Positions 5,687 through 52,562 of a stretch of 64,000 nucleotides of DNA are shown here, one piece after another (the stretch's first letter is position 1; each line of letters starts with the position of its first letter). The position numbers and the translations under genes are program-made. The notes beneath the pieces are model-generated. The model was not told the DNA's origin, did not search any database, and saw nothing but the letters and a program-made list of their open reading frames with translations. The DNA comes from Pegea sp. RAD2-039. Taxonomy: Eukaryota > Chordata > Thaliacea > Salpida > Salpidae. The stretch is from contig JAQGEQ010000357.1 of the NCBI GenBank assembly GCA_034620365.1, positions 248,001 through 312,000 on the forward strand, in the 5' to 3' direction.

Positions 5687-7276
5687 ATGAAGCGCTCTTT
5701 GATAAGTTCTTGCTTAATAAAGTCAAACATAGAATGGAAAGTTTTGTCTATGTCAGTAGAATATAAAATATTACAAAGTTTGACTTGTGGACAAGCATTT
5801 CGGTAACTTTTTTGCTGTTTTAACAATTTAATTTTAAGATTATTTGTTTAAAAATTTTAATTTGTTATGATTAGATAAGTTTTATTTTAACTTCTGCTTT
5901 TATATTATTATTTGGAGACTTTTCCAAAGTCTTTTATAAATAGTATCTGCATTATTAAATTGATTAATTTAACTTTAGATTGTTTAATTTGTACAATACA
6001 AATGCTCGTAAATATCTAAATTAATTAATTTTTTTGTAAATTTGTAAATAAATCCACCTTCAGATGGAGAATATTTGAAGATACTTTTTTAGGAGTCTTC
6101 CGTAACAGATTGTGGCAAATAAAGACATCGGGAAATAATTTATTCTACAAAGTACTTGCTTGTCCTCATTGGAAAAGCTCTGTAGCAAGTAAACTTTATA
6201 ATTTCAATAAAGTCTTTGAATTGATTAAATTTTCCAGAAATTCAGAAAATGGAAAACCGGGCTCAAAATAGAAACTGTGGATGTGAAGAAGATGAGAAGA
6301 AGTTGATTGGAGACTACTTTAGAGTCTCTTTTGATGTTAAAAGACTACAGAAGATCTGGATATCAGGGGACCCGTAAGTTGAACACTTTCTTCGAAGCAA
6401 AACAAATTTGAGTTTGATTAAAAGGAAGATTGAAGAAGCTGTGAAGAGTGTGGGTCTTATCTCTCTACTTGATCAGGAACCATTTGAAAATCTCATCACT
6501 TTTGTTTGTACTCAAAACAACAACGTCAGCAGGATCACAAAAATGATTGAAATGATTTGTAGTGAATTCGGAGAAGAAGTAACTCATCTATGAAGATCTT
6601 TACCAATCCTCATCCTTTATTAGCTATTCCAGTTCACTTCGAACGGTCATGACGTCACGTTTCACGACTTTCCTACTCTCAAACGACTTTGTGAAGATGA
6701 CGTCACTGACAAGCTACGTAAACTCGGCTTCGGTTACCGCGCACCTTACATTTGTGAATGCGCCAAAATGGTATTAAAAGTGGTTTTAAAGGATGTTTAA
6801 AAAGTTGGGATCACTTTTAGATCAGCAGCAATGGAGGAGCTGAATGGTTGGAGTCACTTCGTCAGAAGGATTACGAAATCGCTTTTATGGAGCTGCAGAA
6901 TCTTCCTGGAGTCGGAAGAAAGGTTTTCTAATCAGAATTACCTGCCACTAGGGTTTTATTCTCGAGTTTTATTAACAGGTTGCTGATTGTATCTGTTTGA
7001 TGTCTTTGAATAAACTAGAAGCAGTTCCTATTGATACTCACATTAAAAAACTTGCTGTTAGTAAATATGGCTTTACTGTCAAAAATAAATCTCTCACTAA
7101 AAAGACATACAATGAAATAGGTGAGTAGATGAAGATTTAAAGATCGTTTGAGATCAAATCATTTCTTTTTAGGTGATTTTTTTCGTAGTATTTGGGGGAC
7201 AAGCGCTGGATGGGCTCAAGCGATCGTATTTTCGCTGGCTCTTAAACCAAATCTTTCACTTTATCAGTTAAAGTGA
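5687..7276 (+). CDS. OGG1: 8-oxoguanine DNA glycosylase
   Basis: Bifunctional glycosylase/AP lyase that removes 8-oxoG opposite C in base-excision repair, in nucleus and mitochondria. Exons: 5687-5802, 6064-6188, 6238-6373, 6425-6578, 6633-6770, 6821-6922, 6979-7120, 7173-7276. All phases agree and give 338 residues (human 345). Visible family marks are GQAFRW near residue 40, the CTQNNN loop (Asn157-159), the helix-hairpin-helix LPGVGRK with catalytic Lys257, and PIDTH with Asp276, each offset by eight from human OGG1. The C-terminal GDFFRSIWG..AGWAQA block is also present. Exon 4 could begin at 6398, 6413 or 6425, all in frame. I chose 6425 because it aligns without a gap and gives a 51-bp intron like the others. 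Two TGACGTCA octamers lie in exon 5 and are read as Asp-Val-Thr at positions where the human protein has DVT or similar. Confidence 0.95.
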
Positions 7277-8596
7277 AAAATGTAATTCATCTACCTCATC
7301 AAAAATCTTTAATAATTTGAATTTACTGGTTTTGTAATGGACTTGATTTCGTAAACTGTTTTTTTTTATTCATTTTTCATTAGTTTTTAATTAGAAATAT
7401 TTTTTCAATTCTTTTTATGTTTTGTGATCAGCTTAACTTGTTTTCTTAGTTAACAATTTCGTTTTTATACAATTTTTTAGAATTGAAATATTTGTATATT
7501 TTCGAACAGAGTTTTGATTAAAGGATTTTTTCAAAAGCTTAAGAAGATATATTGAATATCTAAATGATAATAATTCAAGCTACTTAAAATATTAACTCTT
7601 TAAATAAAACAAATTATAAAGATGATAACTTTTTTCAGTTTTTAAGTAAATTTCTCAATTTATTTCGCTTTCAAACTATTTGATTATTAGTAGAGGATTT
7701 TATTTCAGTAATTTATTTTAATTTTTTTCCTGTATCTCATATTTTTCCAAAGTTAATTGTAAAAATGTATGAACATTAACTTTATTTCTTCTAGATTATT
7801 TTCGTATAAATTATAATAGTAAAGAAAACTACAATAAACAATTTTATGAAAATATTTAAAATTAAATTCTCTTTTTTACATTGCTTGCAAAAATAACTTA
7901 AGCTTTTAGAGTTCAAAATTTCTTAATAAAAATTTAGAAAAAATTTTCTTGATGAAATGTTGAAAAACAGTTTTTAAACCAATATAAGTTAAAGCTTAAA
8001 TAGTTTTTTACAAAACAGTTTTTCTAAAATTAGTTTAATTTTTATTTACTTCAGTTATATTGATTTTATTTAAGACTAAAGCAAGTTCGATAATTTTTTT
8101 TATTAAATTAGTCTAAGGTTTCTATTTGGAAAGTATTAAAATAGCAAAATGAAAGTATTATATAAAAGTATAATTATTTTGTTTACAAAGTAGATAAACA
8201 AATATTTTTAGTTTAGTTTTTTTAAGTTTTATGAATAATGTTTATGAATATAAAAGTTAAGCAAAAAATGTGTTTACTAAATGTGTCCCAGTATTCTAAT
8301 ATAAAAGAATTTAGTTTGTTGAAGTTAGGGATCAGATATAAATGAATAGGAATGTAATTTATTGTTTCTATCATCAATGTTTTAATTTATTTCTACCAAT
8401 TGTATGTTTGTTTTTTATGTTTCTTTCGGTTATCTATTAAGTAAAATCTGATTTTTAGTTTTAGAAGTTATAAACAAATAGAATGATAAAAAATTTGTAA
8501 ACAAGTTATTTTTATATTGTTATTATACTATATGTAGACATATTTTATTTGTAAGAGCATTCGACTTAGTTAATTAATTTAAAAAGACGCGAGAAG
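7277..8596. other. AT-rich spacer between OGG1 and the protease gene
   Basis: Very AT-rich and without coding signal or repeats. It should hold the 3' UTR of OGG1 and the promoter of the next gene on the same strand, but no specific element stands out. Confidence 0.6.
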
Positions 8597-11068: not shown

Positions 11069-11130
11069 AATCAATTCGATAAAAAAGATCTTTTTGTGAT
11101 GTAATTATCAACTGTCATGGATAGATGACG

Positions 11131-14100
11131 TCACAAAGAGGTCCCGATGCGAGCAGGTCTATTCAAGGAGACTTGTTGTGTCATTGTTTGAGTGAGAAAA
11201 GAGCTTTCAGCTTCGTGTAACGCGCGTTCGCCTTCGTCGCCTACAAGTGACTAGCAGATAAGAAGTGATTTGGTTGTGAGTCAGGGAAAGTACCGAAGGA
11301 GAGAAGTACGTGAGATGCCGCTTGACGTACAAATGGATCCTCATCAGTCTGAAGTAGAAACGCGAGCTGAGGGATGAGTTGATGCGCCCCGATGAATCCA
11401 ATCGCGATGCAAGAGCTCTTCCGATCGTCTGCTTCTCGCGATTCAAGTAGCTCAGCAAAAGAATTGATTGCCTGCAACAGAAGGGGAAGTAGAGGAAAAT
11501 CAGCGGGAATTTAAAGCTCACTTTCTCGCGAAGAATTTCTTCTGCGCCGAGATGGCGGATATGAGCAGCAGCAGCGTTGCGGAGTTGTTTGTTGGATGCA
11601 AGAAGTAAGGAGGTAAGAGCTCGTAAATTGCTCACTGTCATCGCCAGCAAAGAGCTGAGCTGCTTGATTGCTCGAAGAACTAATTGAGAGTTGTCGTTCC
11701 GTAGTTCAGAGCTGATAAATACTGAGAAGAAAATCAGAAGAAGATCAGAAGAAGATCAGAAGAAGATCTTATCTCACTACTCACTCTCATATCCGAGCAA
11801 ATCTATCAACTTCCCTAAGTCGGCGGCGTCTCCCGTCTCTAGAGCGTTTGTGACGTAATCATGAAGCTGAAAGACAGTTACAGTCTGCTGATCAACCTCA
11901 GATGAAGAGGACCCTTCTGGAAGTTGCGCGACTCGACGAACAAGTTCCGGAAGAACTTCAAACAAGGAGATTCAGATGAATTACGAAGATGCTTCGCGCC
12001 TACCTCTCGTAGCAACCTCAGCATGCCGGATTCGAGTCTCTGACCCATATCCCATCTCCAACTCCAATCGAAGTATCTTACCGGATGTTGTGAGCGCGAA
12101 ACTTCCGCTACAACACGACTTCCAGAACTCAAGAAGCGCGCGGTTCTTCGTCAACTGCTCGACACCTGAAACCAATCTCTTAAATAATTACCTCATAACA
12201 ACTGATGACGTCACCTTCGTAACCGACGTCGGGCGTCTGTGCGAGCTTGAGAATAGAGCGGATAATGTGTCCTTGCTTACAGAGGCAATCTAACGCGCGA
12301 TCTTCGATGACTCGAAGAGGTCCAAAAACTCCGATTTTCTGAATTTAATTTTAGGTTAAGAGCGCCCTTTTGTGGAAGTACGATTAATAGTTAAGTCTCG
12401 ATTGGCGCCGCTCGAACCTCTAAGCTGTCAATCGCGATTTGTAGATGACGTATCAGAGCTTCATCACAACAGCTTTGACCAGTTGTTGCCATCTGCTCTT
12501 CATTACTGTAAAAAAGCTCGATTCAAATCGCGATCAAGCTCGATTCAACTTACTTCTCGACTTCTTCTGAAATAGGTGAACAGATCATGACGTCATCAGA
12601 GCACTGAGCCTTTTTTTCGATCTGCAGAAGAGTTCAAAGTTGAAAATGATGTAGAAATCGCGCGTATCACCTGTAGCGACTGTTGGAGCTCAAACTCAGA
12701 AAGCTCAAGGACTTTAAGATCTTCATGTCTTCCGCGAAAGTCTTCCAGTATCGCGTTGATTCGAGAAGAGAGGTTTGCTAATTTGCAGCAGTTTTGCCTT
12801 TCAAAATCACTCATTTGGCGGAAGATGTCGGACTTAAAAGAAGATCTTGATAAGGATTTTATAAAGATCTCAAACTTGTAAACAAGTCAAAACATCTTTC
12901 TCCATTCTGGTACTTTTATAAAATTCTTTTCAAATAACTTCTTGTCAACAAGAAACATTTGACAGCAAATTACTTTCAAATAATTTAACTTTCTCCAAAA
13001 ACTTACAACCAAATTATTTCTCGAAGCTTTACGTAATATTAAATTTGCCAATGATGATTCATTATTACAAACACTTAAACAGATCTTTGATTATTACTAA
13101 CCACGTGAATAGTTTTATGATGATGTCTTTTACAATCAAAGTCAATCACATCAACTAGAAAATTTCACAAAAAAAACGATTTTCAAAATGTTTAGAAGTT
13201 ATTACTTGAGTGGTTTGTTTTCTGAATTTTTTCAATATTTTCAAAAGCCAGTTTCATTAAAAACTTTTAACGTAGTCTCTCAAAACAGACTTTTCTGCTT
13301 CAGTTTTTTCACAAAATTCCTCATCATTTATTGATACTTTTAAATTCCCAGTTAAAAATTTACCTTTTGGTTTCTAGTTGAAGCTTGATCTTCCGATAGT
13401 TCGTTTGAATTATTAAAGATTTGAAGATTTCTGTTAAAGAATTCGAAGAAGGCTTCATCAGATGCGGGAGTACTTTGTATAATCGGATATCTCTAAAATG
13501 AGGAAAAAGTAACCAAATGTTAAAACCGCAAGACTTAAACAAAAGCTTTATTTATCAATTCGTCGCCGCGGTTATGACGTCATCATAACTAAGATCTACT
13601 ATTTTTAATCATTTATTTTTAGTTGTTTTTAATGAAAGAAAAAACGAAATTTGGCGATTTACATTCGGAAATATTTCTTCGCTAGAGTCTGAATCTGCTC
13701 GACTAAAGAGTCCACTGGAAATTAATCCGCGCCTTTTAGATCCTCCGCTCCAACTAAACATGATCATAAATATTATTTGTTCTTTAAGATCATCTTTAGT
13801 GAGGTGATAGACTGACCCACTTTTATCTTTTCGCAGAAATATTTATTAAAAGTTATTTCTTTTTCAATTTGTTTAGGAATTTGAGAAATTTATTTTTCTT
13901 AATTGGAAAATATTTTAGGGTTTACTTTCTGTTATTTTGCTAATAACTTTTTTTTTTCAATTTTACTTCATAAGAAATTAATAAAATTAAATTTGGAAAA
14001 GTTTAATTGTAAAATTCACGAAATTTTCTTTTTATAGAAATCTGTTTAAAACAACATTTTAAATTTTATTTATCTTTTTACAATTTTATCATTTCAATCA

Positions 14101-17100
14101 AGTCTTTAAAATATGAAATTTCAGTAAATTATTGAAATCAATAAAAAGATTTTTTCTTCGTATTTCTTTTAAGTATTTTTAACTTCTAAAAACTTAACGT
14201 TTTTCTTAACTTGTTTTATAACAAAAAAGTTTTTAAATTTCTTAAAAACAAAATTTAAAGTTCAAAAAGAATATTAATTTATGTTATTAAAATTATCGAT
14301 ATTAAATAGAATTCGTGATATTTGTTAAAATTATTAGTATTAGTTAAAAATAATTAGTATTAGTTGAAATTATTAATATTAGTTGAAATTATTAATATTA
14401 GTTGAAATTATTAATACTAGTTGAAATTATTAATATTAGTTGAAGTTATTAATATTAGTTGAAGTTATTAATATTAGTTGAAGTTATTAATATTAGTTGA
14501 AATTATTAATATTAGTTGAAGTTATTAATATTAGTTGAAATTTTCGATGAAAAAGAAAAATGAAAATTGTTATTTTATTGAAAGCTACAAAATGAAGAAA
14601 ACAACGAAAAGTTGAAGACAAGTTGCAAGTCACGTGGTCAAAAGCGCGAACTTGAGAATGATGACGTCATATAGTGATGGCAGAGATGTTAGTTGAGGAT
14701 TCAGAAGTGCATCAAATGAAGATGCTAGACTCACGTGAAAAAAGAAGAATTATGATTGGTTGGTGAAGTCATGCGTATCGGACGCAAGCGTTGTGCTACA
14801 GATCCGAGGGAGTGTCGCTGATGGGAGGTGTCCTTGACGCCTATAGCTTGAGCGGAATGAAATTGGATAGGTGTCTCTACTGTCGCTGGACCACTAATAG
14901 TGGCTGGGGACAATGAATTGGTCCGTTCACGAGGCTTCAATGAAAAGTCTTCGAAAGGACTGCAAAGAATAGAATAATTGATGAGGATCAGAAAGTGATG
15001 AAGATCAGGAAGTAATAAGAATCAGAAAGTGATGAAGATCAGCAAGTAGTGAGGATCAGGAAGTGATGAAGATCAGGAAGTGATGAAGATCAGAAAGTGA
15101 TGAAGATCAGAAAGTGATGAAGATCAGAAAGTGATGAAGATCAGCAAGTGATGGGGATCAGCAAGTAGTGAGGATCAGCAAGTGATGAAGATCAGAAAGT
15201 GATGAAGATCAGAAAGTGATGAAGATCAGAAAGTGATGAAGATCAGAAAATGGTGAAGATCAGAATGTGATGAAGATCAGAAAGTGATGAAGATCAAGAA
15301 GTGATGAAGATTAAAAAGTGATGAAGATCAGGAAGTAATAAGGATCAGGATGTGATGGGGATCAGCAAGTAGTGAGGATCAGCAAGTGATGAAGATCAAA
15401 AAGTGATGAAGATTTAAGAAGTGATGAGGATCAGGAATAAATCTAACCTCCACTGAATATCAAGATGGAGTTTAATTGTTGCTGCATCGTTGAGATTAAG
15501 TTGGAAGATCTGCACGAAAGACACAGATCAATGATTTAGAAAAGATGATGCGAAAAATAAAACTGACTGAATCTTGTTCAGTAAAGATCTTCTTCACTTC
15601 AAGACACAACTCCCCAATCGTCGATCGTTTTCCAAACAACTTCATCTCATCGATCTAAGACATACAATAAAGATCTTGAAGATCAACATCCAAAAGATAA
15701 AGACCTTGATGTGGATGTTGTGGGATACAAGAGTCTTCATGACAGTCTCACAATTCTCCCATTTTTGATCAAGTCCTGATGACTTCACTGTTCCTCTACT
15801 TCTCCATTTTTGTGTCCCATGTCTTAACATCATCTCATAGTGATCTCCAGACTTCAATCTCGCATATCCCAACAATCCTGTTTTCATAGCAACACTCATA
15901 AAGTGTGTGATGACGTCATACGTCTGTTTGCTCACCCTTCATTTGGAAATGAAAACATCCTAAGACTTCATCTTCTAACATCTTCTCAATTTGGATCAAC
16001 TCCTTAAAAAACAATAGATGACGTCACATGCGTGACACGTGACCAGCTACAAGCAAATAACGCCGTTATGGGAAAGGATGAGAAAAAGCAGGTAAATAGA
16101 TGACGTCATCAGTGCTCGCGGTTGATGGGAAAACAACTAAAGTTAACAATTGTAAGTTGTTGAATCAGTTAAGAAAACGGCCATTTTTGTCTAACCGCCA
16201 ATTCACCGATTAATGATGTCAGACGAAAATGCTTTTCTCAATACTCATTCATGAGAACTTTTGTGACAATTTGTCGTCAATGACATAAAAGATTAAACGT
16301 CACAAGGGAAGACAGGTTTGTGGATGAAGTGAGGATTTCGAGATTTTATTAGTTGTTGATTAGTTTGAAACAAAAATTTCTCAACAAAAAAAATTAATTG
16401 GAATGACAACAGCTGTAAATAAATTGCACTAATTAAAAGATGACGTCATCACAAGCTGGTCTAGATGACGTCATCACTTGATTGTTAATCAGTAGAAAGT
16501 TAGAAGTTGGTTAGTAGAAAGCCACCTCGCCGTTCAACAAAATGCTGTGTTCAACTCCATTCAGAGAAGAACGTGAACTCACAGTTGCAGATGTGACCGA
16601 AATGGCCGTTTTCAATTTATCCGCGCCTGAAAATTCGCCCAGTTCACTCTTTCGCCCTTTTTTCAACATCTCTACCCCACCTTCCTTATATCTCATTTGC
16701 ATTTTGTATTTATCTTGAAGCTCTTCGAGCTGCGTCAGCTGGAATTCCAACTTTTGTCTCATTCGCTCTAAATGCTTCACTTTCTGCAATTTCCGAAATC
16801 TAAGTCACGTGACAGATGATGACGTCACACCGACCTTATCATGCTCGTAAAGTTGGGCCTGTGAAGCAAATGACAATTAGAATAACAGCTGACCGACAAT
16901 CAACAAGCAATCAACTAACTGCGTTCATCTGTTGTCTCTTCTTCCCCATCGAAGATTGCTCATCTGTTACCATGGTTACGCGCAACCTGTCGTCCTATGA
17001 CGTCACTATCAGTGATCTGAGGAGTCGAGACTTACCTGAGTCCGCGATCAACTGCATCATAGAGCTCGTAGAAGTGATCTGGAAACTTTATTCTAGTTTT

Positions 17101-29700: not shown

Positions 29701-30566
29701 TAAAACAAGTTAAGATGGAAAACGATCAGACAAACGTTAATTGATATAAATTCTAATCTTTTATTTCGAATTTACAACAATAATATACTTTTAAATCTAT
29801 CTAGAATTTTATAAATAACTTCATTTAGTTTTTAAAAGTTACTTTTTGGATATCAGAGTTACAAAAAAACATATTTTCACGTTGGATACTGCTTTTTTAC
29901 AAATAGAGTTGACAAATAGATCAGTTGCTGATACAAAAAAGGTTTTATCTTTTACATTAAAACATAAAACAACAAAACTTTGATAACAAAACATATATAA
30001 AACATATAATAACAACCAAAAAGGTTAATTGAAAACTTTAAAAACAAGAAAACTATTTCAACCGCTAGTTAGCAGCAGAGCGAAAACTTTTACGACTTTA
30101 TTCTCAATATTTCATTTTTTCTATTTACAATTCTGCCAATGAAAAATCATCAACAAAATCTTTGATTCTCACAAAGTTTGAGATAAATAATTGCTTCTAT
30201 TTGTATCAAATAATCTGATATTTAAGTGCTAACATTGAAATGATTTGTTTCAAATTCACAAATAAATTTATCACTTGATTTCCACTTTCAACTATCTATC
30301 ACGTGACTTAGCCAATAATCAAACTAAACCGCGCGAACGTTTTCACGCACGAATGATTTTACTGCACAGATCTGTAGTTAGAAAACCTCAATACAGATGC
30401 TGCAGATGACGTCATTAAAGATTCAATGAACAAGAGATCAGATTGAGACGTTTTTAGTACAATTTTGAGATTTTAAAAGCTTCAAGAGGTAGTAAACTAA
30501 CCACTAGAGGGCGTTGAAATTGAGCAGTGAAATTGACGGTAGCGGTTACCAAGGCAACTGATCTAG
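26738..30566. other. gene-free AT-rich interval between LRIG and GRIP
   Basis: About 3.8 kb of AT-rich sequence without convincing ORF, repeat or RNA gene. The first TGACGTCA on the GRIP side is at about 30410, and a CTCF-like site lies at 30501-30514. It should contain the LRIG promoter and the GRIP 3' UTR. Confidence 0.6.
30501..30514 (+). promoter_or_regulatory. CTCF-like motif 3' of GRIP
   Basis: CCACTAGAGGGCGT fits the conserved animal CTCF core CCASYAGRKGGCR at every position. It is in noncoding sequence 53 bases beyond the GRIP stop. Similar strings recur in the window (see findings). Binding is inferred from the motif only. Confidence 0.35.
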
Positions 30567-38935: not shown

Positions 38936-40504
38936 TCATGTAAAGAGCATCTCTTTTCGAAGCTCTTTGAGGTCTTGTTCAAAACGTTCTTCAAAATAGA
39001 TGTTCATAAAGAAGACGGATTTCTTAGCAGCATCAACTACTTTTGGTAAATCTTTTTCAATTAATCGATTTCTTCGTTGCTTGTTGAGTCTACAAGATGA
39101 AGAGTTAACATCTCGCTGTTATGACGTCAGCAACTACTTGAAAGTTCCTCCTATAGCAGCAAGCCAGCACATGGGTAAGCTAGTCTGGATTGCTTCGTAA
39201 TACTTCACAGCAACTTCACCTCTCAGATTAGTTGGTTGATCTGAAAGATGAAGATGTAGCTTTTTTAAGCTGACAGACACACTTCCTTCCCGCGCATGCG
39301 CTTTGATGATTGTGGATAGCAGCGCATGCTGAACGACTTGGGACAGTGCCCTGGGACAGTGACTTTAAGATCAATAAACCGTAGATTTCATTTCAGAACT
39401 TCTCTGTCCTAGATGAGATGTCTGCCCAGGGCAGATGAGATGCCTGCCCAGGGCAGATGAGTTGCCTACCCAGGGCGGATGAGTTGCCTACCCAGGGCAG
39501 ATGAGATGTCTACCCAGGGCAGATGAGATGTCTACCCAGGGCAGATGAGTTACCTACCCAGGGCAGATGAAATGCCTGTCCAGGGCAGATTAGTTGCCAG
39601 TCCAGGGCAGATTAGTTGCCTACCCAGGGCAGATTAGTTGCCTACCCAGGGCAGATGAGTTATCTGCCCAGGGCAGATGAGCTGCCTACCCAGGGCAGAT
39701 GAGATGCCTACCCAGGGCAGATGAGTTGCCTACTCAGGGCAGATGAGTTGCCTACTCAGGGCAGATGAGATGCCTACCCAGGGCAGATGACCCATCCACA
39801 ATATTTCTATCTTGTTGTCAGAGAATTTTAAAACAACAAGAAACTGGATTTTATGTCTGGACTGTCCCCGAAACAACTACAAAATAGGGTACTATTCAAT
39901 TAGAGATAGGAAAGATACTTTTCGCTCTTCTTAAATCGTATATCGAGGTACACGATGACTTAGCTAGTAGTAACCTACTTAGCAACTCACCTAGCAACAG
40001 ATGGCAGAAGTCGTGTGTTTCTCGATACCGCTGAAGTACATAAGCAAGTTGAGGGTCTTCGACAAACCTGACTTGACTTCTACTGTCCGGTGTGATATTC
40101 TAATCAACAAACACTTTAACTTCGTGTCCAGACAAACAGTAAATGTCCACTGACATATTTAGACAGCATATTGGAATATTGCTTTCCAAAAGTATTATCA
40201 GGATAAGTAGCAAGTGTTGGTAAGTCGATACTGGTGGAAGTGATACGAGGTTGTTCTTCTAATATTCTTCGGCCAGTTTTGTCAGACACCATTTTGTTGT
40301 ACATATATTTAATCGAGTTACCCGCTGTTGTCTCGGCACTGACCGCTACCATGTCTGGTAAAGATCAAATCAATGACCTGAAATGTTATCAACTCAATTA
40401 CCATGTCTATAAGGATCTTTTAAAGCCATTAAGGAAGATAAAGTTCCAAGAAGAAATCTTTGAAAAGGATTAATCTTGATGTAGTTGATGGTAGAAGTAG
40501 TCAT
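38936..40504 (-). CDS. COQ4: ubiquinone biosynthesis protein COQ4
   Basis: Mitochondrial matrix protein of the coenzyme Q synthome, implicated in C1 decarboxylation/hydroxylation of the quinone head group. Five exons (40402-40504, 40155-40354, 39991-40099, 39138-39240, 38936-39089) join in phase to 222 residues. Clear family blocks: [37 protein letters not shown], the metal motif HDxxHx11E (His130, Asp131, His134, Glu146), [17 protein letters not shown] and [14 protein letters not shown]. Human COQ4 is 265 residues. The shortfall is the N-terminal presequence, which here is brief or begins in an unseen upstream exon. Intron 4 (39241-39990) holds a 17-copy minisatellite and a dispersed element. 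The gene lies head-to-tail with HRI, with 315 bp between them. Confidence 0.95.
39275..39395 (+). repeat. dispersed GCGCATGCGC element, copy 2
   Basis: Counterpart of 18620-18740, lying in COQ4 intron 4 directly before the minisatellite. It shows CTTCCCGCGCATGCGC, a GATGATTG stretch, GCGCATGCTGAAC and a doubled GGACAGTG. Confidence 0.6.
39411..39790. repeat. 22-bp minisatellite in COQ4 intron 4
   Basis: Seventeen consecutive 22-bp units of the type AGATGAGATGCCTACCCAGG plus GC, then a partial unit. Most variation is at GAGATG/GAGTTG, GATTAG and CCTACC/CCTGCC. Exact period, no spacers and no coding frame, so it is a minisatellite and not a CRISPR-like array. Confidence 0.97.
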
Positions 40505-40819
40505 CTTAACAAGAGATCATTAAATGTTTTATTATTTTAAAAAATATTCCTGAAAAACAGAATTGGGCTTTTGTAAAAGTCCAGCAGTTGAAAAAACATG
40601 GATGCATCATTTGAAATAAGATGAGGTCTATAAAAATAGAGGCAGACTCAATTAGCCATGAGAGTAATGATTCATTGATTTTCTTATAGTGTCTCAAACC
40701 AAACTGAATAGAGACATCTTAATTTTCTATCAACAATTTAAAGAAATACAAAACTGAATAACACAACTTAAACTACCACCATTCAACAAAACAAACTACA
40801 AAATCAAACCACATCAGCT

Positions 40820-42574
40820 TTATTTATTCTTCTGACCTTTCAACTTCTCCTTCAACTCAGCAACCATTTGTTTTGCTGATTGTAATTCAGCTCTACAATC
40901 CAGCAGTTGTGAATAATATGAACAACTACAGCTAGTACACCGACAAAAGAGTTTGTTGTTCAGCAAATCACTTGCACTTGGTCTTTCGTCTGGTATTTTA
41001 CTGGTCAATAAAAGCACCACTTGACACATATTTGGCCATATTTCTTTAAACTTAGCTGGCAAAAGTCGGTCGTTTTTTAAGTTGATGATTGTTGAAATTC
41101 TTTCATGTTGTGAATGCATCGGCCATAAAAGCTCAAATAAAATAATTCCAGCTGAATACATATCACTTTTCACACCATAATTAGTACTTCCAAGCTGCTC
41201 AGGTGAAATATATAATGGGGTTCCTAATCCACTGGTCAAATCATCTTCAGTATTCGGATTGAAACCTACTTGGTACAAAAAGTCCCTTTTTTTAGGCAAG
41301 CGAACGCTGGTACTGAGTCCAAAATCACCCAGATAAACTTGAGGTTTATCACCACTGACAAAGATGTTCTTGGTTGCTATATCTCGATGAATTACTCCTT
41401 TTTCATGGATGTATTCCAACGCAGAAAGAAACTGTGAGAAGACTACCTTGCTTCGGATAAAGAAGTCGTTCATGACGTTACGTGAGTATTCGACTTCGCT
41501 ATCAAAGTCGAAGGATTTGCTTCGTTCAATCAACCATGACTGCAAGTTAGATGAACATAACTGCATCTGGATGTAGAGAACCAAAGAGTTCTTCTTGATG
41601 TCCTCTTCCTCTAATTCGCTCATCAGGAAGCTATCAGGGTTCGAGTAGGATTTACTAAAAGCTGAATTTGTGTCAGTATCATCTTTGCGAGAGCTCCAGC
41701 CCACATTAGCTGTTGAGTTATCATCAAAAACGATGTTGAATGAAGATTCAGACTCTGTTTGATCTTCCTGATCACAGATTTGATTCTTCTCAGAGACTTC
41801 AGTGATATAAGCCTCTGTGACAAGCTTATCAGCTTGCTTTTGTATATCCGCCACATGTAAAGGGTCAGGATGCTCCAGCCATGAACTGTAATATCTCACA
41901 ATATTTGGATGATTAAGAACCGAAAACACATCAACTTCACGCTTCAATTCCAAGATACTTTTATGAAAGTTCTTAAGTTTCATTGGCATAGGAATTTTTT
42001 TAATTGCATATTTGATATTATCAAATTTGTTTTCAGCCACATAAACTTGCCCAAAACCACCATGATTAATCAAGCTCAGTTCTATAAAATCACTATTATA
42101 TTTAGCTAAATGTATTGGATGATTTAATTTATTATCTTTCATCAAATCATTAATAGCAGTAGGTACAATAAGACCTTTAGCAGCAGGTAAATGTTTCAAA
42201 GTTTTCATTTCTTTCCAAGTATGATGAATCAAACCAAATAAAGCTCGACGATATTGATATCGGACTTGAAAGAAAACTTCATTTTTTGTTGTTGGATGAA
42301 TAAACATAACACTTGAAAGTTTATTACAGACCAGGTTAAATAATGTATAAGCATCTTCCTTGTTCCCGGAGTACAAAAGGCACATTTGTTCTAAGAATGA
42401 ACCAATTAAAATGTGTGAGTTTATGTCTGATAAATCTTCCAGTCCATATTTGAGGTCATCTATACTGCCTTTTTCTGTCAGGTCACCAACAGGCAGAATT
42501 TCTTTTTTATCTGAAGCTTTATATTCCACATTAGGGATCTCCATTCTAAAGCTAAGATCATCTGTTTTAGACAT
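40820..42574 (-). CDS. EIF2AK1: HRI-type eIF2alpha kinase with atypical catalytic loop
   Basis: HRI phosphorylates eIF2alpha and slows translation under haem shortage or mitochondrial stress. The 584-residue frame has an N-terminal helical domain (1-165), kinase N-lobe with GGFGQVY (172-178) and YAIKKI with Lys192, the long acidic insert typical of eIF2alpha kinases (about 250-330), C-lobe with DFGLS (417-421) and SPEQL, and a C-terminal coiled coil (AELKEKLKG). The catalytic loop reads HRDIATKN: Asp398 is present, but the usual lysine two residues on is Ala400 and a lysine sits at 402, the layout seen in tyrosine kinases (HRDLAARN). The rest looks active. The coding region has no intron or octamer. 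AATAAA overlaps the stop codon. Length fits the family (human 630). Confidence 0.92.
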   Translation of the reverse strand: MSKTDDLSFRMEIPNVEYKASDKKEILPVGDLTEKGSIDDLKYGLEDLSDINSHILIGSFLEQMCLLYSGNKEDAYTLFNLVCNKLSSVMFIHPTTKNEVFFQVRYQYRRALFGLIHHTWKEMKTLKHLPAAKGLIVPTAINDLMKDNKLNHPIHLAKYNSDFIELSLINHGGFGQVYVAENKFDNIKYAIKKIPMPMKLKNFHKSILELKREVDVFSVLNHPNIVRYYSSWLEHPDPLHVADIQKQADKLVTEAYITEVSEKNQICDQEDQTESESSFNIVFDDNSTANVGWSSRKDDTDTNSAFSKSYSNPDSFLMSELEEEDIKKNSLVLYIQMQLCSSNLQSWLIERSKSFDFDSEVEYSRNVMNDFFIRSKVVFSQFLSALEYIHEKGVIHRDIATKNIFVSGDKPQVYLGDFGLSTSVRLPKKRDFLYQVGFNPNTEDDLTSGLGTPLYISPEQLGSTNYGVKSDMYSAGIILFELLWPMHSQHERISTIINLKNDRLLPAKFKEIWPNMCQVVLLLTSKIPDERPSASDLLNNKLFCRCTSCSCSYYSQLLDCRAELQSAKQMVAELKEKLKGQKNK

Positions 42575-45500
42575 ATCAATTTACCTAAATACTAAACCAT
42601 AAAAATAAATTCATTATTCATGAGGTAGAAAATAAGTTTATAAAGTTTACTAAGATTAAATTTCTAATTAAAAAAGTTCTAAAATTTATAAACAAACTCA
42701 AAGAAAAAGTATAACTAAAATCTAGATATAAAGATCATTTTAATAGAGTCATGAAAAAGAAACTTATTTCAAAAAATAATAGATTATCAACAAGATGAAA
42801 AAATAAGAATATTCATTTAATTAATTTTAAACACTTTTAAATCATTTATATTTGTTAACTGTCTTATTGCTTGTATTAGTCTAAAAAATAGTCTTCTTAA
42901 AAATATACATAAAACTGCTTTTAATATGTTAATAAAAAAATTATGAAACTTAAACAAAAATTATTTTAAACTTTCTTATAAGTCTATAAGCTTTTAAATT
43001 CCATCAAGTAAAATGAAAAACTCTGAACTGAAGTAAGTATTTTTTAGTTTAAATATTTGGCTAAAACTTTAACTAAATAAACTTTCCTAAATATCAAAAT
43101 GATTAATTTTTAACATATATTTGGTAAACAAAATAAATATTTTAATAACTTTTAAATAAATAAATAAACCATTTTTTTAAATGTCATTAATTATTTGACC
43201 GACAATTTTTATTATTTTATCTTAGCAAAGAAAATTGAGTTTTAATAAAAAGGAGAATTAATTATAACCACTAATTGATTAAAACAACAAAGCTTTTAAT
43301 ACAATCATTCAGAAGTGGTATAAAATTGTTGAGAACTCAAATAAGTTTTTAAATAGCTTGTAGTTCATGATATAACAATTACAAGTTCATTGTTAGAAAC
43401 TAAACCTAGAAATTGTAATTACTTCTAGAACTTTCACCTTATTTCCAAAATTACTATAAAATAAAAAACAATTCCCTAACATGAAATACTTACATGAGAT
43501 AAAAAAAACAAAACAAATTTACCTGGAAAATAAAGCTGCAGACATAACAATAACAAAGATGACAACGTAAAATTTAATGCTTTTGTATAATTATCTTTAA
43601 AACTTATAATTTGCAAGTTCAAGTTTTGAAATTTAGTTTATATCAATCATATTCATACAGTTTATGTTAAGATATATACATTAGAATATAAAACTAATAT
43701 ACGTTGAAACAAAAGTTTTGCGCAGAAGAACTTATTTTGTTAGCAGCCAAGTAATTTATACTCAATGACAAGTAATGTAAACCTAACTTTCAATAATATG
43801 AAGACGTGCCGGGACAGGTTCACACGTGCATGCATTTGTAGTAAGTCTTTAGATATGTTTTCTACTGGAAAAGTAACCACATTACTTTTTATTAGTAACC
43901 ATTATTTATTTATTTATTTATTTATTACAATAAATGTGAAGGAGGGTGCCTAAAGAGAGCACCTCTCGCTAACACACATTCTCACAAATTAGATCTATTT
44001 GGCGTGTAAACGTAAAAGCATATGACAGTGAAGATTTGCACAGAATCTTCTATTATCTTCAATTATTAGAAGTGTAAGATTTTAAAAGTCCAATGAGGAA
44101 AGCGCAAATGAAAAAATTAATAAATTTTCTCACCGGAACTAAATATCTAATCAAAATTCTTGCTTTTTAAAAACTTGGAAAAGTGAAGAAATTATGACAT
44201 TTACCTATACTCCTTCTTTAAAAAGCATGGAGAAACATATTTGTTTGCATTAAAAAGGTATATAAGATTCTAGTTGATTACAATATGAGTAATTATTCTT
44301 CTTTTTTTAATAAACCAACCCAAAAAACAAACTAATGTAGATTGTATTTTAGCTATTGAACGGATCATAAAATAAAGTTTAAAGTTTATTCAGAAAAGTT
44401 AATCAAATGCAACAAAAAGATAATACAGTAGTAATAAAATACAAGAAATGCTAGCCTTGCTGAAAATAAGTTTTTATGTAAACTAAAGAAAGAAATCGTT
44501 TCATAATTTATCTAAAACTCGATGACTAACAATTTATTTAACTGTTTTTTTTATCTTTTTGAAAAAGTTTTCAAAGCTAAAGAAAACTTTACAACAAACT
44601 GTTATTGGATAAACCTTGTTTGTTTTAAAAGATTAATCTCTACCTCTAGTTGAGTTATTAATTAGAAAAAGATTTCTTTTAATAATCATTACGCAATCTT
44701 ATGAACATAAGCCAGGTATTTTTCTGGGGTTCTAAATTTACTTTTTGGTCTTATCTGAAGTTATCTTTATTTCTAATTATATTGAGCATATAACTCGATA
44801 GAGATCCTGTAAGGCTATACTATTCTGGCCCATAAAACAAGTTCTACTCAGATTAAACTCAATTAATAAGTTAAGTAAAAGTTTAGTATTATGAGAGTTT
44901 ATTTTTTTCTCAGAAATTAAAGAACGTGCCTATACCAAGTTATGTTCTATCATTCGGTTCAGTTGCAATCGTTTGTTTGAGTCTGGTTAAAAGCACATTT
45001 GAAACATACTGTTTGATAAATACTAAGATCAATTTATTCAGATTTTATTAAAGTTTACTCCACAATAGAAGGCTTGTAATAGAAATAAAAGTTGTAATAG
45101 AACTATTATCAAGATCTGGTAGTTCTTAAAAAAATACTTGTATGGATGCTTTTGATAAAGTATTGTATTATTACGCTTTCTAGTTCGTTTAAAATAAAAG
45201 CTTTTGGGAGTGTTCGCTCTAATATAAGTTAAGTGCTTTAGTGGGACTGTAACCTAGCTTTACAACTATTCTGTAACCTACACGGCTGCATTTGATTAAA
45301 ACAATTTTAAAATTCATGAAGAGATGAAACAAAATAATCTAAGAATTAAACAAATTACATTATTCATTGATATCACTAAACTACATTTATTTTCTAGTAA
45401 TAAGTGATTTAATGATCAACCTTCAGAATGAAGATAATTGTAAAAGTCCATTTTAGGTGTATATGTTGAAGCATGTTAAATTTCTCTTTGACTTTGTTAT

Positions 45501-46020: not shown

Positions 46021-49000
46021 ATGATCACTTCTTTAATAAATCTAAAACATTCAAAACATTTAACTTATTCTCTTATTTATCGAAATATGAGCAAAGAGAA
46101 TAAAAGAAGATATAAAGAGTTGAGAAGAATTGAAAAACAAATCAAAATTAATGAAAGTTTGAAAAAACCACAGGTAAATTTTCATACAAATCTGTTATTT
46201 TGATGAAAGAAATGAATATTTCAGACATTTGCAAATCCTATAAAACCATTAAAGACATATCCATACCCATTAACAATTAAAAAAGGACAAAAAAAAGGTT
46301 AGATGTGAATCAGTAGACATTTGTAATCACGTGATCAACTGATAGATACTTCAATACCAATGCCAGCAAGTTATTGTTCCACTTTTGTTGAACCTTATTG
46401 GTATGATTGGTGGGAAACTAAAAAGATGTTTGAATCAGATGAGAGAAAGTCATCTTCTAGAGTTTTCAGTTTGGTGATTCCCCCTCCTAACATCACTGGT
46501 AAGTTACACATGGGTCATGCCCTGACCACAACAATCGAGGACATATTGGCTAGATGGTTGGTTGATGATTGGTCAGTATCTGCATGATGATTGATCGTTT
46601 CTTCAACAGTCATCGAATGCAAGGCTACGACGTGATGTGGTTGCCAGGTAGCGACCACGCTGGCATAGCAACACAGATGGTTGTCGAGAGGTATCTGGAC
46701 AGTCATTTAGGAGAGACTAGAAGCTCGCTAGGTGGTGAAAAGTTTCGCGAAGCCATCTGGCGGTGGAAGAAAAAGTGAGTGCATTGAAGCGGAACGATGT
46801 GCAGCGAAGCGGAACGAGTGTTTGTTGCAGAAAAGGTGATGAAATTTGGCATCAATTGCGACGGCTAGGAGCTTCTCTAGATTGGAAACGCGCGATCTTT
46901 ACACTTGATACGAATTATTCAGAAGCTGTGGTTGAAGCTTTCATTAAGTAAACTTCATCGCCGGTTGCTTAGCAACGCACTAATTAGAAATCGGTAGATT
47001 GTATGATGATGGCGCGATTTATCGAGCGCAGAAGATGATTAATTGGTCTCCACATCTCGGATCATCCCTTTCGGATGTTGAAGTTGATCTTAGAGACATC
47101 CATGAGCCTGTTGCTATGGCAGTCCCTGGTTACGACAATCATGTACAATTTGGCGTCCTTCACAAATTTGCATACAAGTTGAAAGAACCTTTAAGTGAGT
47201 TGTTGTCCCAGTCTGTTTGAAAGTGACCCACAACTGTGGGTCGTAGGAGAGGTGGATGAAGTGGTGGTGGCCACCTCAAGAATTGAGACAATTTTCGGGG
47301 ACACTGCAGTTGCGGTCCACCCTAATGACCCACGTTACAACCAACTCGTGGGCAGGACTCTTGTCCACCCATTCCTGCCCGACCGTCAACTACAGGTGAT
47401 TGCAGATGAAGCTGTGGACATGGACAAAGGGACAGGTCAGTGGTCGGTCAACTTCTACTTGTAATTGATGAAATTTTATGGACAGGAGCTGTCAAGGTCA
47501 CCCCTGCTCATGACCAGGTCGACTTCGAGATTGGATTACGTCATAATCTGGACTCGATAGAATCCGTGGATGATCTTGGGAGAGTGAAGATCAATGGAAG
47601 ATTACGGAAGATCAGTGGAAGTATTGAAGGCAAAAAACAATTTGAAGCAAAAGAGAAAGTCATTGAGAGGTTGATGGGTCTGGAGTTGTACAGGTAAATA
47701 GATGACCTGCGGGTCAGTGGTCAGTGGTTGATAAGTTTATGGTCAGAGGTGCCATTAATCATCGATGTGTGGTTCGTCTTTGTGGGAAAACTGGTGACGT
47801 CATCGAGCCTCGATTAAAAGATCAGTGGTTTGTGAGGTAAGTGGTCTTGATATGGTGACAATCAGACGACCATAGGACCATTTCAGAGTGGCAGATATGT
47901 GTGATGAAGCTGTCCGGGTCGTAGATGAGGGTCAACTACAATTTATACAAAAGAAGTTCACCACCAGGTGGCGTCGGTGGTTAGAGAGCGCCGAAGACTG
48001 GTGTCTTTCACGAAGTTTACAATGGGGACATCAAATACCCGCCTATAAATGCTCCACGTCATCAAGGTGCCCCTAATCCCTAAACAACCTCCATCTCATA
48101 GTCATCTTCCAGATCTCTATGGATCGTTGCGAGGAATCGCGTCGAAGCTGAAGCTAAAGCGCGTCGTGAGCTGGGCGCCGATGACGTCATCACCATCAAG
48201 CAGGACCCTGATGTACTGGACACGTGGTTTTCGTCCGCTATTTATCCATTTGCAGCATTAGGATGGCCCCATGACAACGATTCCCTTCGCAAGTGAGTCT
48301 TGGGGCACTTATCAATCGTCCCTGACCCACAAACATCTTCAGGTATTACCCATTGGATGTGATGGAGACCGGAGACGATTTGATCCACTTTTGGGTCGCT
48401 CGAATGGTGATGTTGGGGACCAAACTTACTGGACAAGTCCCATTTAAACGAGTCCTCTTTCATCCGATGGTTTGTGACAGTTATGATCGAAAGATGAGCA
48501 AATCACTTGGCAATGTGATTGATCCGATGCATGTAGTCGATGGATCTTCATTTCAGGTAAATGATGACACTAGAGGGCGGTGTTGATGATGTGAGTTGTA
48601 GGAACGGATTGAATCTGTCCGTGAGATGGGATTGACATCAAAAGAGAACAAGTTAGCGATCATAGAGATCAGGAAACAAGGAGAAGAGATGCTGGCGTGT
48701 GGAAGTGACGCCCTTCGCCTCTCATTGGCTCATTTCAGTTTACAAGTGAGTCCCTGATCTTCCCTGAGATGATCTTCATCTTCTTTTTCTAGAGCAACAG
48801 CATCAAATATGATCTTCGTCATCCTTACACTTGTCGGAAATTCCTCAATAAAATTTGGAACTCAGTTCGTCTCTGTCTGATGCTTCTTCGCGATGATGAC
48901 GTCATCAAATCGAAACTGGCGCAAGGTGAAACTTGTGACGTCATCAGTGACGTAGATGTGTGGATCAACAACTGCTTGCTGCGATTGGTGACCAATTGTC

Positions 49001-49979
49001 GACGTCATCAGCGCGATTTCGAACTTTCGCGCGCTCTCGAACAATTACAACATTTTTGGACCAGTAACTTCTGTGACGTGTACCTGGTCGGTCTGTCTGT
49101 CCCACTCTCGACGCGATTTTGTGACGTCATCACCGCTTTTGCAGGAAATCTGCAAATCATCGTTCACCAAAACAGAAGATGGATGGAAAGTAGATGATGA
49201 CGTCACTGCCGCGCGACAGCTAACCCTGGTACGATGTTGTGATGTCTTTTTCCGTCTTCTTGCCCCATTCGCCCCTTTTATCACTGAAGAACTATGGCAA
49301 CGGATTCCATCTCATCTTCTGATGACGTCATCATCTCATCACGACTCTATTCATCAAACACGCTACCCACATCCTGATGACGTCAGTACTCATCAGCTCC
49401 CTCATGCGGTTGCTAATCAGTCATTACGCAGCTGGAACACTTACGCGATGATGACGTGTTTGATGACGTCAGTAATAAGAAGCGATTGATGATGCAATGT
49501 CGCTCACAACGTGATCTCTTCCGCCTACAACGTCATCATCTCACTCTTTTCGGATGCAAAGACACACGAGTGCTTAATGACTTCATCAGCCGTCGCCACG
49601 TCATCACCGCTCTTCTCCGTCAACCCTTCGAGATTGTTCTTCGTGATGACGTCATTGGTTGTGATGACGTCATCGGTAGTGTTGACGAGGGAGATGACGT
49701 CAGTTTGCTATTTCGCGTTCAAGTGAGTTTCTTTGATTGGTAGTGACGTCATCACTTTAATTATTTCTACAGACTGACTATGCAAGTGATGACGTCATCA
49801 GTGCATCACTGACGTCACAGCTGGCAAATCTTCGATCACCAAAGAAATCTAAGAGCGCTCCCCAGCGACAACCAGATGAATCTTCATCTAAAGAAGATTC
49901 AAGGATCAAAATGTTGGAAAAAGTCTTGAATCAGAGAGAAAAGATGAAGATCAATAATCTTAAAGATGAAGATCAATAA
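46021..49979 (+). CDS. VARS2: valyl-tRNA synthetase, mitochondrial (VARS2) type
   Basis: Class I synthetase that charges tRNA-Val and edits misacylated threonine. Seventeen exons join in phase to 1053 residues, starting at 46021, 46225, 46346, 46610, 46831, 46998, 47224, 47486, 47747, 47887, 48113, 48343, 48602, 48793, 49145, 49432 and 49773. HMGH (132-135) and KMSKS (642-646) are intact. [11 protein letters not shown], the editing-domain blocks [10 protein letters not shown] and [23 protein letters not shown] and the anticodon-binding [18 protein letters not shown] are clear. PGSDHAG is closer to VARS2 than to cytosolic VARS1 (PGCDHAG). The N-terminus is short, basic and serine/threonine-bearing, as in mitochondrial presequences. 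A second in-frame ATG at residue 24 could give a cytosolic form. At exon 3/4 the best splice gives Arg-Cys-His where homologues have Arg-Trp-His. Exon 2 uses a weak donor. The last domain is rich in octamers read as Asp-Asp-Val. Confidence 0.93.
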
Positions 49980-50948
49980 TCTGATAGATGAAGATCACAA
50001 ATTGATCAAATCTCAAATTATTGAATCAATTTTTATTATTGGAAATTTTTTTAGAATAAAAATAGAAAAAATCAAAATTTTAAAAAAGAAAAAAAAATTT
50101 TTAAATTTAGAAGAAATTTTGGAAAAAAACAAAAATTAATTGCTAAAGGCACACCTTGATACCAGATTAGATGAAGAATTTTATTAAAAAGTCGATTTTG
50201 ACAGTTTTTACGGTTCACTTAAATATATGCAAGCTGTAATTAGAGATAGAATTACTGAAGCGTCTAGATAAATATTCTAAAAAATATATTTCATTTTTTT
50301 GTCGACATGGAATTGCTTGACTGAAAGTAAAAACCCGGTTTTTGTTGTGAAAAAAAAGGAAAGGGTTCCTTTGTTGTGTTTTTATCAAAATAATAATCAT
50401 TTAAAAACGATTTAAGTTGAACAATTTTTGAAATTAACGAGTTTTCAGCTGATTAATTGATAAAAAAAAATTAATAAAATAAATGAAATAAATTCAAATA
50501 AAAGAAATTAGTGACAGAAAAAAATTGTCAAAATATTTTCTATAAGAAATGATTTCATAATTTGGTTTTAGAATTGTCACAAACCTTTTTCAGAAGAGTA
50601 TTTGTTTACAGTGTTAGTTGGTAATTAATTAGTTTTCTTGAAGCTATTGACATTTTGTTTATATTTTTATGACATCGGTTATTGAGCAGCTAAAACAAAA
50701 ATACAATTTCAATATTCTTCTTATAAGTCTACTCTTTAGTTTAAAAAATTATCCTCATCTTTATCTACCTGACTTTCATTGTCATCTACCTTATTCTCAT
50801 TTGTATACAATTACTCAGATATGACGTCATCATCAGCACAAGTATTTTTAAAAACATGATGACGTCATCAATGCAAAAGTAAAAGTTCAAAACAAAACAA
50901 AAGATGACGTCATCAAAATAAAAGTTCAAAACAGAACAAAAAATGACG
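49980..50948. other. convergent 3' region between VARS and SLC16A
   Basis: AT-rich, with four octamers clustered at 50820-50950 near the SLC16A stop. No gene. A 40-bp duplication at 50877-50957 is listed separately. Confidence 0.5.
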
Positions 50949-50957
50949 TCATAGAGT
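50877..50957. repeat. two-copy 40-bp duplication at the SLC16A 3' end
   Basis: Two adjacent copies of AAAAGTTCAAAACA(A/G)AACAAAA(G/A)ATGACGTCAT, each ending in the octamer. The second copy contains the stop codon of the transporter. The copies differ at a few bases. Confidence 0.75.
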
Positions 50958-52562
50958 GACAGGAGACGACGAAGATTGCTGAATAAAACGCGATCCAACA
51001 AACATAACAACGGTGCCTAGCAACAGTACACCACCAGCGAGAACAAACGAAATTTTAAAGCTCCCAGTGACGTCATAGATCAATCCACCAACAAAGGGAC
51101 CCACTAAACATCCGACCCCATTAAAGATTTCAAGATAACCAAAAGCAGTATCGACGATAACAGCATCTAGACACGTGTAAAAGCTCAATGATGTCAGAAG
51201 TGGTGACGTCATTAACTTACCGAACATTCGTGGAACGTAGATGGGGTAAAGCGACCAACTACCAAATCCTGCACCCAACAGGATACAGAAAAGAAGTTGA
51301 AGCTCGAAACTTGTGACGAAGATACTCGCGATCGTGAGTAGTGACGTCATCAGACGCAGGAAGAGGAAGAAGTTCAGAGGATTGATTTTAAAAAAACTAC
51401 AAGTTGCTCCCCACAAGAATCTGGCCACCATATTGCTGAAACCTATCCCGGATGCAAGCAGCGCACCTACGTCATCGGTAATGACGTCATCTTGTACAGT
51501 TGATGATGACGTCATCACTCACCTTGCTCTGATGTCATGTGGAATTCGAGTTGGCTTCGCAAAGGTGTAAGCCCGATGACAAGCATCATACAGAAAAAGT
51601 TGGTGAAATTGGAAATGATTCCAAGATGGAAATATTTATGGGTAAGCACGCGGCGAGTGAGACTCCAAAAGCCCGCCAATTTTGTTGGTTTTTCCGATCT
51701 TTCAGAATCGATGATAAGCGCGATTTGTTTTTCGCTGTCATCAGAAGAATTGATGAGATTTATCACGTGATCTTGTTTGATGAAGTTTCCGTTGATCTCT
51801 TGTTTGATAGGAAGATCAGGATTAGGAAAAAGAGCCGCGGCGCTGACACACATATTTCCCATGACCCCTGAGAGGATCAATAATGTCCCACGCCATCCAT
51901 AAATACTCTGTAAGATTGCTGATGACGTCATGAAAGCGAAAAAAGCGCGAAACCTCAAGTTTTTCAATGAAGATGGGAAAGACACAGGATCCAACTCCAA
52001 TCCCACAACTCGCAAATCCCATGAAAAGAGCGTATCTCTTTTGGAAGTAATCTTTCATAATCATCACCGCCGGAAGATAACAGACGCCGATACCGAAGCC
52101 TGCGCGCAATTACATCACTGTGACGTCATCACTAGTCAATTGCACCTGCAAAGAATCCGTAGAAGATGAAGATCTGCTGAAGACTGGATGCAAAAGAGCA
52201 AAGAAAGATTCCCAAAGATGCTAAGAATCCACCAATCATATGAGTTGTTCGATGATCGAAACGATTCGAAATAAAACTGGCCACAGGCGCTGTAACATCG
52301 CGTCATCGCTCTCTCATGACGTCATCATGTATATGTACTTACCCAGACCAGATGAAAAACCGGAAGCTGCTGAACCAACTAATGACGTCACACCGGAAGT
52401 GGTTTGAAATTCATCGAGCCATGACGGCGTGAGTACTGAGTAACCAAAATAAACGGTTGCCATGAGAGTATGTGTGACAAATGATGCTATGGCAACTGCA
52501 TAAGCCCAGCCTTCGTCACGTGGGTAGTGACGTTTAGTAGAAGTCTCTTTTGGTTCTTTCAT
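50949..52562 (-). CDS. SLC16A: SLC16 monocarboxylate-transporter family protein
   Basis: Plasma-membrane major-facilitator carrier for lactate, pyruvate or related monocarboxylates; some members carry other substrates. Exons 52343-52562, 52146-52289, 51954-52099, 51523-51907, 51221-51466 and 50949-51166 join in phase to 452 residues, a typical length. The family signature before helix 1 is DEGWAYAV (16-23). The second signature reads DYFQKRYALFMG (138-149). Hydrophobic stretches fit twelve helices with a polar loop at about 215-260 between helices 6 and 7. GGLIYDVTGSF in helix 11 matches the family's AGxIYDxTGS block, with DVT encoded by an octamer. The ATG at 52562 was chosen; the frame extends upstream without an ATG. 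The stop TGA is part of a TGACGTCA. Substrate and exact family member cannot be told. Confidence 0.93.

Follow-up and report, generated by a model that had tools for sequence, protein, structure and literature searches.

Why does a single palindromic octamer recur so densely in one stretch of an animal genome? The word is TGACGTCA, identical to the core of the CREB/ATF response element (CRE) with its central CpG, and the stretch, hereafter the window, comprises 64,000 nucleotides from Pegea sp. RAD2-039 (assembly GCA_034620365.1, contig JAQGEQ010000357.1, positions 248,001 to 312,000, forward strand). The explanation that we consider best is that TGACGTCA is a highly iterated palindrome of an animal genome, that it has the specificity of basic leucine zipper (bZIP) proteins, and that a regional bias in fixation maintains it.

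In the window there are 112 exact copies of TGACGTCA, against 0.71 expected under a dinucleotide model; they run from 6650, where the first starts, to 52390, the end of the copy that starts at 52383. No octamer of any kind is commoner in the window, and 112 of its 119 GACGTC words sit within TGACGTCA. An initial annotation had put the number at ~110 between 6.6 and 52.4 kb, with ~0.6 expected, and had named five stretches free of sites; the count bears out the estimate, and none of the five stretches holds a copy. In the genome assembly searched (105.7 Mb, 387 contigs), TGACGTCA occurs 27,792 times and the reversed word 969 times, while GATGACGTCATC has 3,824 copies and its reversal four. A 130-kb sample, made up of 13 loci of 10 kb at round coordinates (L009–L022 without L014), held 24 sites against 0.75 expected, with 0 to 11 per locus, and TGACGTCA ranked above all other octamers on (observed − expected)/√expected; 10 of the 24 lie within copies of one tandem family (locus L021), leaving 14 without them. 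The runner-up palindrome on the same score was TCACGTGA, presumably a basic helix-loop-helix-type palindrome with 9 copies in the sample (0.75 expected) and 12 in the window (0.71 expected). Three loci selected as dense because sites were already known there (L014, L023 and L024) contained 64 copies against 0.42 expected. A maximum-order Markov test was set aside because it conditions on parts of TGACGTCA itself. That TGACGTCA occurs tens of thousands of times, within coding sequence as well as outside it, suggests that something keeps creating and preserving it.

The flanks of the sites are graded and symmetric. Among the 224 half-sites of the window, the −1 position is A in 64%, G in 30%, C in 6% and T in 0.4% (one half-site), G reaches 50% at −2 and T 57% at −3, and positions −4 to −20 carry at most 0.08 bits each. 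The full preference is TGRTGACGTCAYCA, purine on one side and pyrimidine on the other with almost no T at −1, so that the flank conservation noticed at the outset is real up to −3. No homology was found among the flanks of the 112 sites outside TGRTGACGTCAYCA. The initial annotation had said that its reading would fall if the density were local to the window or due to one satellite family; copies are found genome-wide and their flanks are unrelated, as expected of an iterated palindrome, with dispersed single sites in coding and non-coding DNA. Because TGACGTCA is palindromic, has symmetric graded flanks and is blind to coding sense, we read it as a site in double-stranded DNA. Its core, with purine at −1 and pyrimidine at +1, conforms to a CRE/ATF bZIP site, and we take TGRTGACGTCAYCA to be the flank preference of ATF/CREB-type bZIP sites. 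The genome encodes CREB1-like and Jun-like bZIP segments, 12 of the 42 candidates scored matching bZIP_1, and no expansion of bZIP genes is evident among these candidates. From sequence, the predicted bZIP dimers (CREB/ATF/Jun) would be the natural readers of the word.

The enrichment is genome-wide yet strongly patchy. The initial annotation was right to suspect a genome-wide phenomenon, but the window is not typical in density, at 1.75 sites per kb against a genome mean of 0.26 per kb (~6.7-fold). The four 10-kb stretches neighbouring the window (L005–L008) contain 1, 2, 0 and 0 sites, and in the 130-kb sample 13 of the 130 1-kb bins hold a site, the variance exceeding the mean. Among bins with a GC content of at least 0.32, the median observed/expected (o/e) CpG ratio, computed with the letters of the sites masked, was 1.03 in those with two or more sites (n = 32) and 0.64 in those without sites (n = 40). 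The difference held when the window was taken by itself (p = 0.002) and when only the random and neighbouring loci were used (p = 0.04; 29 and 5 bins). Much of the site-free DNA of the window is AT-rich intergenic or repeat sequence, together with two CpG-depleted genes, MCMBP and HRI. Sites therefore favour CpG-rich genic DNA and avoid AT-rich DNA and these two genes. The mosaic of CpG o/e values fits a fractionally methylated genome, such as that of Ciona (PMC1796609), with methylation here deduced from CpG o/e.

Within genes, the density of TGACGTCA is indifferent to coding sense and to exon or intron. The homology-supported coding sequence of site-bearing genes, supported in some ranges by weak matches with E values as high as 0.4, has 13 sites in 2,592 nt (1 per 199), and the four main islands have 108 sites in 20,951 bp (1 per 194). 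The homology-supported coding sequence of MCMBP and HRI has 0 sites in 2,364 nt. The reading phase of the octamer that contains an in-frame stop is excluded by the way in which open frames are built. In the immunoglobulin (Ig) exon, the sites at 20855, 20920 and 21020 are each free of gaps in at least one alignment to titin or contactin Ig domains. Such gap-free alignment to known domains implies that these sites arose by replacement of residues and not by insertion. An insertion of a 12–14-mer into exons finds no support in these alignments. The valyl-tRNA synthetase (ValRS) linker site at 48897 lies in an alignment with gaps, a single residue is gapped near the site at 51342 in the transporter alignment, and sites 35436 and 35466 fall just outside the aligned PDZ range. 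Spreading, one half of the process first envisaged, is a conjecture; the three Ig-exon sites, at least, are substitutions and not inserted elements.

The forms one substitution away from the motif carry the record of gain and loss. In a 12-mer frame with 3,824 intact copies genome-wide, position 4 gave 772 one-off forms (control 34), position 2 gave 373 (control 11) and position 3 gave 98 (control 11); the counts include the mirror positions (4/5, 2/7 and 3/6), and positions 1/8 were left out genome-wide. Within the islands of the window, near-misses of the octamer numbered 8 at non-CpG positions against ~7.9 expected and 16 at the CpG against 4.6. When purine/pyrimidine flanks were required across the whole window, there were 20 near-misses against 3 for control words, and 99 intact sites. 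From the 59 near-misses in the 130-kb sample, mutational gain was estimated to be ~14 times slower than the neutral loss of the 27,792 sites, a rough figure that assumes uniform mutation rates. Since neutral loss exceeds mutational gain, the count calls for faster gain, slower loss or an earlier burst.

Reduced loss is indicated by tandem arrays in site-rich loci. In nine arrays or array pairs, 3 of 128 motif comparisons differed, as against 49 of 313 outside the motif (p = 3e-5), and with two doubtful arrays removed the figures were 3 of 112 and 30 of 273 (p = 0.008). Three loci that overlap the window or L032 (L031, L033 and L034) were dropped from the scan, and overlapping rows among 11 were merged or dropped. 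A previous comparison in which one array was mis-registered gave no significant difference (14/139 against 45/324, p = 0.29) and was replaced by explicit registration. In the 36-bp array of the window (34187–34342), none of 32 motif comparisons differed, against 9 of 88 outside. One aligned paralogue pair with unshared sites was available, and its four single-copy sites differ by single substitutions within the core. The other half of the process proposed at first, retention, stands regionally, in tandem arrays of site-rich loci, but not in the tandem family described below, which shows none; the bias has to differ between regions or periods.

The explanation that we favour, tentatively and at slightly less than even confidence, is regional weak selection for occupancy by bZIP proteins, with decay elsewhere. 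New copies of TGACGTCA would arise by ordinary point mutation, in exons too, and intact sites that a bZIP dimer can bind would be fixed and kept beyond chance in CpG-rich genic domains, which are probably unmethylated. The bias would consist mainly of weak selection and not of a bias in conversion or repair. In AT-rich DNA, in CpG-depleted gene bodies and in released families such as the cluster on contig C50, sites would decay neutrally, fastest at the central CpG and at the G and C of TGA and TCA.

Several observations count against this explanation. The C50 family (contig C50, 75–326 kb; loci L021 and L037–L056; 45 matches at 75–100% identity) is the only large paralogue set, and across its 22 aligned copies the motif columns show 0.66 changes (21/32) against 0.68 elsewhere; because they change as often as the other columns, its sites decay at the neutral rate, and one clade lacks all four sites. 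One-off forms stand at 9 to 34 times their controls, so that a simple equilibrium of all-or-none selection does not fit the genome. The array test leans towards retention, as the arrays were chosen for carrying the motif, and the array at window position 31308 is reversed in sign (1 of 16 motif comparisons against 0 of 19 outside). A bin with four sites (L021, 6001) has a CpG o/e of only 0.59. In Ciona, most copies of the related motif TRTGACGTCA in the notochord genes described lie outside the minimal enhancers, and a CREB-like site of the Lmx1-r enhancer is dispensable (PMC11001920).

Among the alternatives, gene conversion or repair linked to binding and biased towards the intact-site allele is somewhat unlikely but survives best. 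In this account a germ-line bZIP complex would open chromatin and breaks would form beside the site, the GC content nearby would be raised, and no benefit to the animal would be needed. The GC content is indeed 0.43 in the 20 bp nearest to sites and 0.28 at distances above 800 bp, and the sites are blind to coding sense; the GC profile is confounded, since exons and CpG-rich genes are GC-rich anyway, and the profile for isolated sites had one usable isolated site. Minisatellites built on the half-site TGATGAYGTAG are also consistent with conversion, one of the three examined adjoining DNA rich in sites (L035, 7 sites in 3 kb). Conversion at ordinary hotspots removes the initiating allele, which is the wrong direction for this account. 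Fission yeast provides a partial precedent in the meiotic hotspot ade6-M26, where the CRE-like ATGACGT inside a coding region is bound by Atf1-Pcr1, an ATF/CREB heterodimer, and breaks form on both sides of ~70 bp around the site that are without visible breaks; two canonical CREs of Schizosaccharomyces pombe are nevertheless non-hotspots, and not all CREs behave in this way (PMC9775316). A broader version, a sequence-specific drive, is doubtful to a similar degree: a germ-line bZIP complex would get its own palindrome preferentially fixed by biased conversion or repair at tens of thousands of places, would rewrite coding sequence (as DDVI and MTSS peptides), and the word would mark or create unmethylated gene domains in a manner shared by tunicates.

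The sites could instead be the relic of a past burst that now decays neutrally, the islands reflecting slow decay through unmethylated CpGs. We consider this unlikely, although the neutral decay of the C50 family agrees with it, the counted one-off forms (373 + 98 + 772, with positions 1/8 uncounted) amount to about one-third of the 3,824 intact copies, and the ratio of position 2 to position 3 forms is near 4 genome-wide against 5 in the neutral family. Position 4 forms are only twice as frequent as position 2 forms genome-wide, against 8 to 10 times in the neutral family, and arrays in site-rich loci hold the motif while the remainder of the unit diverges. Slow CpG decay cannot account for a 150-fold enrichment of one octamer, and clusters of the same word in Ciona (PMC11001920) would not be expected from a recent, species-specific burst.

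Ordinary regulation, with the islands as dense working CREs and intragenic enhancers, is improbable. The sites are perfect bZIP-type sites in a CpG-rich gene context, and in the Ciona Cnot11 enhancer one copy of TRTGACGTCA overlaps a required TGAC core (PMC11001920). In vertebrates, CREs are concentrated in the 150 bp upstream of the transcription start site (TSS), and in human they reach 25% of the expected number genome-wide, whereas canonical CREs of Ciona intestinalis have no positional bias to the TSS (PMC1796609). In the window, where TSSs are unmapped, we saw no concentration upstream of genes: sites fill exons and introns, 13 lie in coding sequence, conserved coding sequence is as dense as the rest, and sites crowd the 3' parts of both the LRIG-like gene and the ValRS gene. 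A density of 48 sites in 6.2 kb and a total of 27,792 copies are likewise hard to reconcile with working enhancers, and the suspicion voiced at the start that this was not ordinary promoter use is upheld. Dispersal by a repeat, satellite or transposon footprint carrying the octamer is highly improbable and was rejected, for although short tandem arrays contain a handful of the sites and some have been multiplied in the C50 cluster, flank homology stops at ±3, aligned paralogues differ at sites by substitution and not by insertion, and a genome search with the densest island (window 30600–36700; best candidates scored, simple repeats skipped) reported, apart from the island, nothing but matches to a stretch of 12-bp period, with no second (haplotig) copy reported among those candidates.

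Table 1 Site clusters, genes and arrays of the window (positions are those of the window; o/e, observed/expected).
Feature	Position	Strand	TGACGTCA sites	Remarks
MCM-binding protein gene (MCMBP)	1428–3047	−	0	Site-free contrast; CpG o/e 0.08 in bin 2001–3000
Small cluster	6650–6705		2	
Island 1	11126–17005	− (gene)	12	RIPOR-like gene; masked 1-kb bins GC 0.27–0.45
Island 2	20017–24265	− (gene)	20	LRIG-like gene, 3' part; GC 0.445, CpG o/e 1.09
Ig-domain exon	20729–21073	−	20855 (VTSS), 20920 (HDVI), 21020 (KMTS)	
Island 3	30407–36632	− (gene)	48	GRIP-like multi-PDZ gene; GC 0.431, CpG o/e 1.19
12-bp array of TGATGACGTAGT	31012–31084			Degenerate; matches dispersed 12-bp minisatellite arrays at other genomic loci
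36-bp tandem array	34187–34342	+	Intact in all units	5 units, the last partial
Small cluster	38817–39129		2	
HRI-type eIF2-alpha kinase gene	40820–42580	−	0	Site-free contrast; CpG o/e 0.50 and 0.63 (bins 40001–42000)
Island 4	47795–52390	+ (ValRS), − (SLC16A-like)	28	ValRS 3' half and SLC16A-like gene, tail to tail; GC 0.408, CpG o/e 1.04
Late ValRS open frames	48793–49489	+	In frame: 48897, 48936, 49198, 49323, 49378	
SLC16A-like open frames	50949–52109	−	In frame: 51068, 51204, 51342, 51923	

The features of the window are listed in Table 1, and the gene linkage claimed by the initial annotation holds, the islands lying on the RIPOR-like, LRIG-like, GRIP-like, ValRS and SLC16A-like genes. 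Assignments differ in strength. The RIPOR-like gene has a FAM65 segment slightly below the model cut-off and a HEAT segment, and the LRIG-like gene has Ig domains by alignment, its upstream leucine-rich-repeat-like open frames being judged by eye. The late ValRS open frames match solved synthetases (E 0.4 to 7e-5), and the SLC16A-like open frames have weak matches (E 2e-5 to 0.04), with MFS_1 below its cut-off; the in-frame sites given for both sets of frames in Table 1 fall in ranges supported by homology. The 36-bp array encodes 12-residue repeats in an open frame on the plus strand opposite the GRIP-like gene (34050–34859; 269 aa), which has a signal-like start and repeats rich in N-glycosylation sequons and gave no Pfam match.

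Other tandem arrays were observed. A (TTGATGAYGTAG)n minisatellite of 12 bp, built on the CRE half-site, forms arrays on many contigs, exceeding 2.6 kb in L032 and occurring also in L035 and L036; on the opposite strand one frame reads (TTSS)n. At the three array loci examined, the half-site is shared and the octamer is not. A second dispersed vocabulary, with units of 11, 14 and 17 bp around GAAGATC(A), is found on several contigs (window 11725–11768 and 14979–15434; L023 7001–7077; L035 1–390; L036 1–140), and a 22-bp array of AGATGAGTTGCCTACCCAGGGC with 17 copies, unrelated to the octamer, occupies window positions 39411–39790. AT-rich dispersed repeats at window positions 43905–44000 and 4300–4600 recur in 7 of the 13 random loci (L013, L016 and L018–L022), and none of their aligned copies carries TGACGTCA. 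The genome as a whole is compact and AT-rich (sample GC 0.29) and has TTAGGG telomere repeats. Ciona has a let-7 cluster; here, contig C42 (53785–54357) suggests a cluster of the tunicate type, with three let-7-like hairpin matches inside 600 bp, none of which reaches the family cut-off. The tunicate-specific mir-1497 was not found in a model search of the genome, a miss that does not show absence, and a search for mitochondrial COX1 gave no hit. Low GC content has been described in tunicate genomes (PMC8704543).

The nearest relative in kind is the highly iterated palindrome HIP1 of cyanobacteria (GCGATCGC) with its alternate forms. HIP1 sits in coding and non-coding DNA alike, and the likeness drawn in the initial annotation is supported, as here too one palindromic octamer stands far above chance genome-wide in both. 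The differences are an animal host, strong patchiness, flanks conserved to 14 bp, and a word that corresponds to a bZIP site and to no known methyltransferase site. One-off forms of HIP1 are common, and a mutation-and-repair model has been proposed for its creation, but its deviations tend to spare the middle and to fall at the two end positions (PMC4390886), while those counted here are commonest at the centre (4/5, then 2/7, then 3/6, positions 1/8 uncounted). TGACGTCA works like a highly iterated palindrome but falls outside the HIP1 class, from which the pattern of its counted one-off forms sets it apart. The TG-variant of the CRE, in which C changes to T at the CpG (PMC1796609), is likewise among the commonest decay products here. 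The hotspot ade6-M26 shares the CRE-like site, but the available text describes no mass enrichment of an octamer around it (PMC9775316).

In the literature searched (titles and the beginnings of abstracts, with few subscription papers), we found no report of genome-wide TGACGTCA enrichment in an animal. The nearest known report, on the text available, is a study of Ciona notochord enhancers, in which MEME gave one significant motif, TRTGACGTCA, with 10 copies in a 1.8-kb fragment of Spalt-like (PMC11001920). The Ciona clusters have the same core and the same purine at −1; the accessible part of that paper describes them from a few enhancers, without a genome-wide count (PMC11001920), whereas the enrichment in Pegea is genome-wide. 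It may be old and shared with other tunicates.

If the word could reach tens of thousands of copies and enter conserved exons without being a repeat, some process in this animal acts on DNA words regardless of coding sense. TGACGTCA would then, if this holds true, give HIP1, itself explained so far only by models, a counterpart among animals, and the CRE clusters of tunicate enhancers may reflect a genome-wide background and not regulation.

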